DNA of 34,536 nt, from the NCBI GenBank assembly GCA_026196615.1, contig JAPHSW010000125.1, positions 1 to 34,536 on the forward strand, read 5' to 3'. A model generated the notes under the pieces. The model did no database searches. It saw only the letters and a list, made by a program, of their open reading frames with translations, and had not been told where the DNA came from. Of this stretch, positions 7,028 to 10,247 are shown piece after piece. Origin of the DNA: Gammaproteobacteria bacterium (GTDB lineage Bacteria > Pseudomonadota > Gammaproteobacteria > GRL18). Position 1 is the first letter of the stretch, and every line of letters starts with the position of its first letter. The position numbers were made by a program, and so were the translations under genes.

Positions 7028-9097
7028 ATGCATAGTAGTGGCTTTTTAATACTCCTGTTTGTTATTTCTTCCCTCCTTATTGGCGCATTGTTAAAAGTCT
7101 TCATGCGTAATAGTCGATTACCTTACACTGTTGTTTTATTATTAATTGGAATCATTGCTGGCGGTGCAAATCATTTAGGTGTGTTCGGGCAGGATACCCT
7201 GGTGAGTAGTACTTTTGTTCAAGTTGGTCATATTGATCCACACCTGATACTTTATCTTTTTTTACCCACTCTGATTTTTGAATCTGCTTATTCAATGGAA
7301 CCGCATCTTTTTTTCAGAATTGCACCTCAAATTATTCTTTTAGCCATAATTGGTCTTATTATTTCTATGCTGCTCAGTGCCTTTGCAGTGAGTTGGCTTT
7401 TGTCCTGGAGTATGGGAGTTGCCTTGCTTTTTGGAGCTTTGATCAGTGCGACTGATCCTGTGGCTGTAGTTGCTTTATTAAAAGAAAAAAGCTCTCGTAA
7501 ACGCCTGGAGACACTTATTGAAGGTGAATCTTTATTGAATGATGGTACCGCAATCGTTTTTTTCTCTCTTTTTTATGGATTTGCCCTTGGAACCACTACG
7601 GAGATTAAAATGTTACCTGTGGTGGGTGAATTTTTATGGGTAGTTACAGCGGGTTTGTTGATAGGCGCGGCTATTGGCTGGGGAGTATTATGGATTATTG
7701 GTCGATTAATTAACCAACCAATGATTGAAATTACTTTGTCTATAACTGCTGCTTATCTTACTTTTATGATTGCAGAGTTTTTACATGTCTCAGGTGTTGT
7801 TGCTCTTGTTTCTTTGGCACTGATGTTTTCAACCATTGGTCGTATTCGTATTTCTCCTGAGATATCACATTTTTTGCATCAATTTTGGGAAGTCATGACC
7901 TATATGGCCAATACTCTGATATTTTTAATTGTTGGCATTGTAATTATGGCGCATACGACCTTTGATTCGCCAAAGCTCTGGTTGACTCTGGGAATACTGT
8001 ATATTTTGCTAACCATTATTCGTAGTGTTTCTGTTATTGTGCTTATGCCATTACTTGAAAGAATTGGTGTTGGTATTAACAAGAAAAAAGCCACAGTTTT
8101 GGTTTGGGGTGGCTTACGTGGAGCTGTCTCATTATCCTTAGCACTTTCTTTGGCACAAGATACAGCGATTCCAGAGCAGCTACGTGAACAAATTCTTTTT
8201 TTGACTGCGGGTATTGTTTTTCTTACGATTGTTATTAATGGATCGACAATGGAATGGTTATTACACTCACTCAAATTAGATAAATTACCAGCAGCCAAAG
8301 AAGCATCAGTTCAAAAAGCTCGGCAGGGACTTGATGTGCAAATGAAAGCCTTTCTTAAGACACTGGCTAATAATCCATTTTTCAATCGAGTTAAACTGGA
8401 TTCATTGGCCAGTTTTATGAATCAGAACTATGCTCAAAAAAAATCATCAAGTATCGATTCTATGTACTCTGAGAAACCTGTTATTAATTCTGATGAGGCT
8501 AGAGTGGCATTTATGCGCAGGCTTCTTGAAATTGAACGAAGTGACTATTGGCGACAATTTGAAGATGGGCACATTGGACGACAGGCAGCCTTTTTGTTGT
8601 CTCGCTCAATTGAAAATGCACTGGATAATAATCCTGTTATTGCACCACGGCAAACCCTTGATTCGGTATTAAAGGTGCCTACTCCTCCAAAATGGTTGCA
8701 TAAATTACCCTTTATGGGTTCCTCAATGGAAGAATGGCTCTTTACACATTTGTCATTAAGTTACGATATTGCTCGTGGTTTTGTTACGGCACAAGAAGAA
8801 ATGCGGACTCATATTAAAGCGTTGCAGCCTGATGAACAAACAGGGGCTGATATTGAAGATATGATTGATAAAAATTGTTCTCAAGCTTTTAGTTTTACCC
8901 GACATGTTAGTAATGAGTTTCCAAAACTGATCACGCAACTGCAATCTAAATCAGTCAGACGACTGTTATTGAATCATGAACGTTCATTGATTTGGAAAAT
9001 GGAACATGATGGTATACTTGAAGCATCTGAAGCACAACATCTGATTGATAATATTGAATCTCAGATGTTAAAAATGAGACGTGAAGAGAATCAATAA
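7028..9097 (+). CDS. CPA1-family Na+(K+)/H+ antiporter
   Basis: A 689-residue membrane antiporter. The first 420 or so residues are a 12-13-helix CPA1 (NhaP/NHE-like) core with the ion-binding signature SATDPVAVVALL (Asp143) and the GESLLNDGTA motif (Asn171-Asp172). The later WGGLRGAVSLSLALSLA segment is also typical. The C-terminal 270 residues are hydrophilic and helical, a cytosolic tail that in this family tunes activity by pH or ion level. It exchanges Na+ or K+ for protons across the inner membrane. ATG at 7028 has GGAG at 7015-7018. The next gene starts only two bases after the stop, so the two are almost certainly co-transcribed. Confidence 0.93.
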   Translation: MHSSGFLILLFVISSLLIGALLKVFMRNSRLPYTVVLLLIGIIAGGANHLGVFGQDTLVSSTFVQVGHIDPHLILYLFLPTLIFESAYSMEPHLFFRIAPQIILLAIIGLIISMLLSAFAVSWLLSWSMGVALLFGALISATDPVAVVALLKEKSSRKRLETLIEGESLLNDGTAIVFFSLFYGFALGTTTEIKMLPVVGEFLWVVTAGLLIGAAIGWGVLWIIGRLINQPMIEITLSITAAYLTFMIAEFLHVSGVVALVSLALMFSTIGRIRISPEISHFLHQFWEVMTYMANTLIFLIVGIVIMAHTTFDSPKLWLTLGILYILLTIIRSVSVIVLMPLLERIGVGINKKKATVLVWGGLRGAVSLSLALSLAQDTAIPEQLREQILFLTAGIVFLTIVINGSTMEWLLHSLKLDKLPAAKEASVQKARQGLDVQMKAFLKTLANNPFFNRVKLDSLASFMNQNYAQKKSSSIDSMYSEKPVINSDEARVAFMRRLLEIERSDYWRQFEDGHIGRQAAFLLSRSIENALDNNPVIAPRQTLDSVLKVPTPPKWLHKLPFMGSSMEEWLFTHLSLSYDIARGFVTAQEEMRTHIKALQPDEQTGADIEDMIDKNCSQAFSFTRHVSNEFPKLITQLQSKSVRRLLLNHERSLIWKMEHDGILEASEAQHLIDNIESQMLKMRREENQ

Positions 9098-9099
9098 TT

Positions 9100-9519
9100 A
9101 TGCGTATATTGCTGTGGTATTGTGAGAAATTTGATTGGACACCAGCTATCAAAACATTAGATTCAGAACCTGAACTACTCATTGGAATAAAGCAGGGTGA
9201 ATACCAGGATACTGTAGTGGCATTCATTCATGTTGAACCAACAGATGTGCTTGAAGGCAGTTCTTCTGAAAAAAAATTACTCAAACATTTAAAATGGCTT
9301 GCAAAAAAATGGAATAATAGTCCAATCATTTTGCATTCGTTTACACATTTGGGTGAGGAAAAAGCAGATGCACAAGACGCACGAAATTTATTGAATCGAG
9401 TCGAAACCAGGTTGAAAAAGGTTAACTATGATGTTATTCAAACACCATATGGTTATTTTCTGGATTTGGATATGCAAGCAAAGGGACATCCTTTGGCAAG
9501 AATATACAAAGAGTTTTGA
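9100..9519 (+). CDS. Stand-alone ThrRS-editing-domain-like protein
   Basis: A 139-residue protein resembling the N-terminal editing domain of archaeal threonyl-tRNA synthetase (DTD-like fold; Pfam tRNA-Thr_ED). Shared features are the MRILL start, VAFIHVE, the HSFTHLGEE segment (His83), the ETRLKKVNYDV helix/strand, and PYGYF followed eight residues later by KGHPLA. In archaea this domain hydrolyses mischarged Ser-tRNA(Thr); bacterial ThrRS uses an unrelated editing domain, so the role here is uncertain. From memory, archaeal enzymes have Tyr120, Lys121 and Glu134 where this protein has Phe120, Leu121 and Arg134; His83 is kept. It starts two bases after the antiporter stop with no clear ribosome site, suggesting translational coupling. 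Confidence 0.8.
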   Translation: MRILLWYCEKFDWTPAIKTLDSEPELLIGIKQGEYQDTVVAFIHVEPTDVLEGSSSEKKLLKHLKWLAKKWNNSPIILHSFTHLGEEKADAQDARNLLNRVETRLKKVNYDVIQTPYGYFLDLDMQAKGHPLARIYKEF

Positions 9520-9647: not shown

Positions 9648-10247
9648 ATGAATGAATCAATATTTAACAAAACTATTCAACTTATTGATTCGGCCAATAG
9701 CAAAGATCCTAATTCTGAAGAAAGTGAAGGTAAAAGCTGGCCAAAGGAATTATTATATTCACACAGAATGACTGAGATGTTGGAACGATATAAGCCGGAA
9801 TCTGATGAAATTATGGGACTGGCTATTCGTGGCCAGCATATTGAACGTTGGAAATCACCTCGAAAAGATTACCCTATGAATAAAAAAGGGTATTATCAAT
9901 GGCGTACTAACCTTTATAAATTTCATGCAAATACGGTTGGTGATTTGATGAAAGAAGCGGGTTATGATGATGCAAGTATTGAGCGCATAAAAACAGTTGT
10001 TGGAAAAAAAGATTTGAAACACAATCTGGATACTCAACTACTGGAAGATGTGATTGCTCTGGTATTTATTGAACATTATTTATTGGATTTTTATCATGAC
10101 CATCCTGAATATGATGAAGATAAGTGGAAAGTCATTATCGTTCGTACCTGGAATAAAATGACAGAAGATGGTCATAAATTTGCTCTGTCGGGTGCACTCA
10201 AGTTGCCTGAATCTTTAGTACCATTGATACAAAAGTCTATTGCTTAA
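9648..10247 (+). CDS. DUF4202-family protein
   Basis: 199 residues, soluble and all-helical, fitting the DUF4202 family. Conserved-looking histidines and acids are spread in an HD-domain-like pattern: His39 in YSHRM, His64 in RGQHIERW, His93 in KFHA, and Asp134 in LLEDVIALVF. This suggests a metal-dependent phosphohydrolase-like fold, but that is inference; no activity is known to me. ATG at 9648 has AAGGA at 9635-9639 (8-base spacing). It lies 128 bases after the editing-like gene on the same strand and may have its own promoter in that AT-rich gap. Confidence 0.78.
   Translation: MNESIFNKTIQLIDSANSKDPNSEESEGKSWPKELLYSHRMTEMLERYKPESDEIMGLAIRGQHIERWKSPRKDYPMNKKGYYQWRTNLYKFHANTVGDLMKEAGYDDASIERIKTVVGKKDLKHNLDTQLLEDVIALVFIEHYLLDFYHDHPEYDEDKWKVIIVRTWNKMTEDGHKFALSGALKLPESLVPLIQKSIA

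Follow-up and report, generated by a model that had tools for sequence, protein, structure and literature searches.

A bacterial stand-alone branch of the threonyl-tRNA synthetase editing-domain family whose pocket is consistently altered

Passages of two earlier papers describe the DTD-like fold as split between lineages, with DTD in bacteria and eukaryotes and the editing domain of threonyl-tRNA synthetase (ThrRS) in archaea (PMC4880308, PMC5802732). The archaeal editing domains (NTDs) of Pyrococcus abyssi (Pab), A. pernix (Ap), and M. jannaschii (Mj) have been studied by mutation. All three deacylate Gly-tRNA(Gly), and the 2′-OH of A76 is the catalyst; altering it abolishes Gly-tRNA(Gly) cleavage (PMC4491819). 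Exchange of Lys121 for Met, or the corresponding change in the other enzymes, severely lowers activity in all three NTDs and displaces a water in the Pab and Ap structures, though K121M still binds a substrate analogue with high affinity (PMC4491819). The double mutant Y120A/E134A of the Pab NTD and its A. pernix counterpart are at most 1.7-fold slower and discriminate fully between Ser and Thr, while Glu135-to-Ala abolishes the activity of the Mj NTD; in Pab, Glu134 reaches over from the other subunit to hold the alpha-amino group (PMC4491819). With His83 changed to Ala, the Pab enzyme is inactive on Ser-tRNA(Thr) and the Ap enzyme moderately active; because both mutants still cleave Gly-tRNA(Gly), His83 is held to be non-catalytic (PMC4491819). 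An NTD located apart from the catalytic synthetase has been described in A. pernix, whose ThrRS-2 links it to an anticodon-binding domain (PMC4491819).

The window—the whole 34,536-nucleotide stretch of gammaproteobacterial DNA that was analysed—contains an open reading frame, complete from ATG to stop (Table 1), that is present as a single copy in its source assembly (99.2% complete). The initial annotation had proposed that its product is akin to the archaeal ThrRS editing domain and lies in a bacterium unfused to any synthetase, and both proposals are borne out. PF08915 (tRNA-Thr_ED) matches the protein over profile positions 1–136 of 137 (E 4.4e-34; 118 bits, far above the gathering score of 30.2). 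Among PDB sequences the P. abyssi ThrRS-NTD is matched at 9e-16 (the best match, a mutant chain) and 3e-15 (wild type), residues 1–136 running without gaps in the printed alignments. The NCBIfam model for threonine--tRNA ligase reaches 75 bits against a cut-off of 484, and does so only over the editing domain. The protein has neither a fused synthetase nor an anticodon-binding partner and, unlike ApThrRS-2, is a bare domain.

Table 1. Positions of the stand-alone gene, its pocket residues and associated loci; nucleotide positions are those of the window.
Feature	Position	Strand	Remarks
Stand-alone ThrRS-NTD-like gene	9100..9519	+	139 aa, PF08915
His44 codon	9229..9231	+	His in 70/73 stand-alones; Ala in 15/16 and Ser in 1/16 cis rows
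Residues 55–74 (model helix 55–70)	9262..9321	+	Basic in stand-alones; proposed tRNA-binding face
Residues 79–83, HSFTH	9334..9348	+	SFT aligned with QFT of DTD (weak alignment)
Thr115 codon	9442..9444	+	Thr in 73/73 stand-alones; Ala in 16/16 cis rows
Phe120-Leu121, replacing Tyr120-Lys121	9457..9462	+	Lys121 in 0/73 stand-alones
Arg134, replacing Glu134	9499..9501	+	Arg in 69/73, Lys in 4/73, Glu in 0/73 stand-alones
Na/H exchanger	7028..9097		Between hydrolase gene and NTD gene
Archaeal-type ThrRS loci	L050–L061; L014, L015		Desulfosarcina class; another family of the window's phylum, respectively

The protein is predicted to adopt the NTD fold of the DTD-like superfamily. A structure model built with AlphaFold2 on 36 family rows (pLDDT 90.1, pTM 0.85) gave a best Foldseek match at E 5.4e-14 with a TM of 0.88, and superposition on the Pyrococcus domain, which had been suggested as a check, returned a VIA-align Z of 20.8, followed by 19.9 for the Mj NTD and 19.8 for the Ap NTD. 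Both profile and predicted fold agree with the proposed kinship. DTD structures come next after the NTDs, most at Z 14.7–16.1; further down are 5xaq, a structure of the animalia-specific tRNA deacylase ATD (13.2), 1tc5 (11.9), and the first unrelated row (5.8). ATD, as a branch of the DTD fold with its own substrate, is a precedent for divergence of this kind, but it is structurally nearer to DTD than to the NTD and is eukaryotic, being absent from bacteria and archaea according to the relevant passages of PMC5802732.

Pocket residues were compared between 73 distinct intact stand-alone homologues and NTDs in cis (16 rows; 14 NTDs come with an archaeal-type ThrRS in a bacterium). Wild-type Pab NTD served as the numbering reference, and the window protein shares its residue numbers at positions 83, 120, 121, and 134. 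Aligned with this reference, the window protein retains His83 and replaces Tyr120, Lys121, and Glu134 with Phe, Leu, and Arg, as the initial annotation had read from the sequence. Stand-alones as a group share with the archaeal NTDs His83 (72/73), Gly118, Gly129, and Glu46 (each 73/73), Pro131, and Asp49; they differ in having Phe120, Leu or Asn121, Arg134, His44, His79, Ser80, Thr82, and Thr115. Position 120 is Phe in 60 stand-alones, Tyr in nine, Leu in three, and Ser in one, and position 121 is Leu in 36, Asn in 33, His in two, Val in one, and Ile in one. His79 and Phe81 are invariant across the 73, with Ser80 in 71 and Thr82 in 59. By contrast, every one of the 14 NTDs belonging to archaeal-type ThrRSs in bacteria has Tyr120, Lys121, Glu134, and His83. 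The two groups also differ in the charge of residues 55–74, which averages +3.8 in stand-alones (range +2 to +6) and −1.9 in cis rows (range −4 to +1); Lys62, Trp66, and Lys70 in this segment are found in all 73 stand-alones. A Bacteroidota copy from outside the set (L135) carries Phe-Leu-Arg and agrees with the stand-alone pattern. On these alignments, the substitutions are a shared trait of the stand-alone branch and no lone oddity.

Phylogenetic analysis places one branch with 100/100 support between the 73 stand-alones and the 16 cis NTDs, in a tree that rests on few columns and midpoint rooting only, with L010 as a long branch and a program warning that long branches meet among the cis rows. 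dN/dS estimates (NG86) between the window gene and three genus relatives range from 0.072 to 0.134 at dS above 1, a fourth relative being saturated; among ten family sequences the non-saturated pairs give 0.044–0.235. As judged from these codon comparisons, the stand-alone gene is under purifying selection. Taken together, the stand-alones form a real and conserved bacterial branch within the ThrRS editing-domain family, and the pocket is altered consistently across it.

The altered positions had been described in the initial annotation as catalytic residues. The residue changes themselves stand, but the term does not suit Tyr120 and Glu134, which are largely dispensable in two of the three NTDs. 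Because Lys121-to-Met cripples all three tested NTDs, the loss of Lys121 carries the most functional weight among the three substitutions. The activity losses of the Lys121-to-Met, Mj Glu135-to-Ala, and Pab His83-to-Ala mutants indicate that these side chains cannot vary freely, so the family could be inactive. Catalysis may have been lost altogether, and the protein would then serve as a sensor, carrier, or competitor by binding aminoacyl-tRNA or some other ligand that contains adenosine. We regard this as unlikely: the water-positioning Lys121 is gone, the charge at 134 is reversed, and the severely compromised K121M does bind a substrate analogue tightly (PMC4491819), yet published work finds the DTD-like fold to use no catalytic side chain, DTD itself has Met at position 121 (PMC4491819), and the stand-alones keep His83, Gly118, Gly129, and Glu46 almost without exception. 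A basic residue in place of the carboxylate that binds the alpha-ammonium would suggest a different ligand or geometry. The stand-alone protein need not be dead, but an optimal fit to Ser-tRNA(Thr) is unlikely.

The distribution of the protein is patchy. It was found in 11/24 genomes of the window's family, 6/16 of its genus, and 12/57 relatives overall, some of the 57 genomes being incomplete; since only 11 of the 24 family genomes, some incomplete, have it, the protein is inessential. Matches are rare both in the class (3/274 genomes) and in the phylum (3/398 genomes) of the host, and two of the three in the phylum are full-length ThrRSs. A scan of species genomes, with patterns built from bacterial rows, recovered at least 30 loci in Gammaproteobacteria, Deltaproteobacteria/Desulfobacterales, Acidobacteriota, Candidatus Eisenbacteria, and Bacteroidetes; among the matches listed, all were bacterial by record title. 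Of the 241 genomes in the class to which Desulfosarcina alkanivorans (G682) belongs, 58 match PF08915, 57 of them above the cut-off. In twelve genomes of this class the NTD comes with an archaeal-type ThrRS, in four of these together with a stand-alone, and by our own count a stand-alone or its remains is present in 49/241, with G800 left out as under the cut-off. The stand-alone copies of G909, G797, G750, and G870 appear disrupted or truncated and L044 is frameshifted, for which sequencing errors may be responsible. Among Bacteroidota (the phylum of G700), three of 247 genomes match, two above the cut-off; the third match (L137, E 1.6e-4) was judged to be due to chance, its open reading frame presumably resembling another protein. 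Given this bacterial spread, the Pfam label of PF08915 as "Archaea-specific" is too narrow. A mobile-element or defence role finds no support: plasmids, phages, and PADLOC returned no match to the window protein, and viral contigs, in a search that reached close relatives only, no confirmed relative. In the titles and abstract openings of the open-access literature we found no description of bacterial stand-alone NTDs.

ThrRS-2 of A. pernix works beside a ThrRS without editing, unlike the window protein, which sits beside a ThrRS with TGS, tRNA_SAD, class II core, and anticodon domains; this host ThrRS contains an HSAAH motif that we take to be the editing HxxxH. A ThrRS above the cut-off is present in 37 of 38 genomes with a stand-alone, the exception, G684, having weak matches only. 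In 14 bacterial genomes, which may be incomplete, the sole ThrRS match (E 1e-60) is an archaeal-type enzyme whose NTD carries Tyr-Lys-Glu; NTD and synthetase share one open frame in 13 of these and are split over two frames in L055 (G925). The archaeal-type enzyme in these 14 bacteria looks like a replacement of the bacterial one. Four genomes, G856, G879, G921, and G925, contain both this enzyme with its Tyr-Lys-Glu NTD and a stand-alone (L090, L088, L087, and L089, respectively); the stand-alones at L087–L089 are of a divergent type, Leu-Asn-Lys, and sit on a long branch. Ser-tRNA(Thr) editing seems to be covered both in the host and in the four double genomes.

These data bear on whether the stand-alone protein is a trans-acting deacylase of Ser-tRNA(Thr), and of Gly-tRNA, that backs up ThrRS as in A. 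pernix and whose substitutions are neutral. Such a role is unlikely, if the best of the alternatives. The Pab and Ap double mutants at 120 and 134 retain activity and discrimination and the NTDs cleave Gly-tRNA(Gly) as well (PMC4491819); His83 is kept in 72 of the 73, and the NCBIfam Ser-tRNA(Thr) hydrolase model gives a weak match, over the editing domain only (35.8 bits; cut-off 362). However, K121M is severely compromised (PMC4491819), Arg or Lys at 134 in 73/73 stand-alones is too constant for drift, the host ThrRS already has tRNA_SAD, and in four genomes the stand-alone exists beside a Tyr-Lys-Glu NTD. A link to selenocysteine through Ser-tRNA(Sec) was also considered and set aside: at E 1e-30 selA was found in 0/24 family genomes, E. 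coli alone matching among the controls. One genus relative has a second ThrRS match (G007:C168:6088-7725; 696 bits, above the cut-off) in a 667-aa open frame, possibly a resistance copy.

DTD is another free-standing protein of this fold, and it is present in the host genome. The two are alike in fold, in having Phe-Thr at 81–82, and in lacking Lys121; a weak hhalign profile alignment (probability 37), of which only the short QFT stretch was used, places Ser80-Phe81-Thr82 on Gln-Phe-Thr of DTD. They differ at position 83, where the window protein has His and DTD has Leu (PMC4491819), and in the Gly-cisPro motif NxGPVT, the window protein reading KGHPLAR where the host DTD reads NDGPVT. In the profile search proposed alongside that for PF08915, PF02580 (DTD) was not among the Pfam matches of the window protein listed up to E 1. 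A DTD match accompanies the stand-alone in 31/38 genomes examined and occurs in 11/13 family relatives that have no stand-alone. It is very unlikely that the protein acquired DTD-like pocket features on the frame of an NTD and serves as a second D-aminoacyl-tRNA deacylase; the Ser-Phe-Thr stretch and the non-Lys residue at 121 speak for this reading, whereas the missing PF02580 match, the missing Gly-Pro motif, and DTD counts that give no sign of replacement speak against it. Replacement of either DTD or ThrRS by the stand-alone is likewise rejected, DTD being retained in 31/38 and ThrRS in 37/38 of the genomes. In one acidobacteriotal genome, a second, divergent PF02580 match (L127, G687:C230:15040-15650; E 1.9e-32) occurs beside a stronger one.

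The tight link to a cation antiporter noted in the initial annotation holds as adjacency, the antiporter gene ending 2 bp before the start codon of the stand-alone gene, but not as a conserved arrangement. A search of 11 family loci found no antiporter match beside the stand-alone gene, and L082 and L083, two genus relatives with synteny, have a gene for an alpha/beta hydrolase directly upstream in its place; a functional link was rejected. In a third syntenic relative, L086, a contig edge cuts the upstream side. The exchanger may be an insertion in the window or have been lost elsewhere. A DUF4202 protein (9648–10247) lies just downstream of the stand-alone gene and recurs in L082; in L083 and L086 a cytochrome gene follows instead. 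Among 31 regions, no cluster of neighbours was found in more than four; with ORFs called simply and clustered by single-linkage BLAST, this figure is a lower bound. From 77 loci we picked same-strand neighbours, mostly close ones, 32 on the downstream and 36 on the upstream side, and tallied their Pfam families: the highest counts were methyltransferase (6/32) and DUF2058 (5/32) downstream and RNB (RNase II-like; 5/36) upstream. The RNB neighbours probably belong to close relatives, of the L017/L020 type with a neighbour of about 660 aa, and a TrmO-like tRNA methyltransferase lies downstream in one of the 32. There is no tRNA gene in the window, and promoter- and terminator-like sites near the stand-alone gene are at chance level.

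We favour, at a probability of roughly 0.55, the interpretation that the protein is a trans-acting aminoacyl-tRNA deacylase of DTD-like fold, a member of a side branch that the archaeal ThrRS editing domain has in bacteria, and that it acts on a substrate other than Ser-tRNA(Thr). Among the functions proposed in the initial annotation, a trans-deacylase with altered specificity is the one we prefer. By analogy with published work on its relatives, the protein would form a homodimer that grips the 3′-terminal A76 of a charged tRNA with contacts made mostly by the main chain; the 2′-OH of A76 would activate a water and the ester bond would be cleaved, with Arg134 probably entering the pocket from the partner subunit. 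The basic helix within residues 55–74 may help to bind the tRNA body, and a rebuilt pocket, lined by His44, His79, Ser80, Thr82, Phe120, Leu or Asn121, and Arg134 among others, would set the substrate. The data establish the family, the predicted fold, the conservation, the rebuilt positions, and the co-occurrence with DTD and ThrRS; enzymatic activity, tRNA binding by the helix, a place in the pocket for every residue named, and a different substrate are inferences. Against this deacylase reading, there is no conserved neighbourhood that points to a substrate. A more specific and speculative proposal, which we consider somewhat less probable than a loss of catalysis, is a functional branch of the DTD fold, here bacterial only, in which the change from Glu to Arg or Lys at 134 tunes the enzyme to aminoacyl-tRNAs that have no free alpha-ammonium (N-formyl, N-acetyl, or aldehyde-adducted) or that carry an acidic group, for tRNA rescue. 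To our knowledge, the enzymes known for such rescue (DTD2, Pth) have another fold.

Set against the division of the fold between DTD in bacteria and an editing domain in archaea, a free-standing relative of the NTD occurs in bacteria from several phyla, mostly beside DTD. The contrast between stand-alone and cis domains falls on residues with measured roles in archaea, and so provides a natural test of substrate change in a fold without catalytic side chains. The stand-alones may point to a translation quality-control activity in bacteria that has not yet been assigned.
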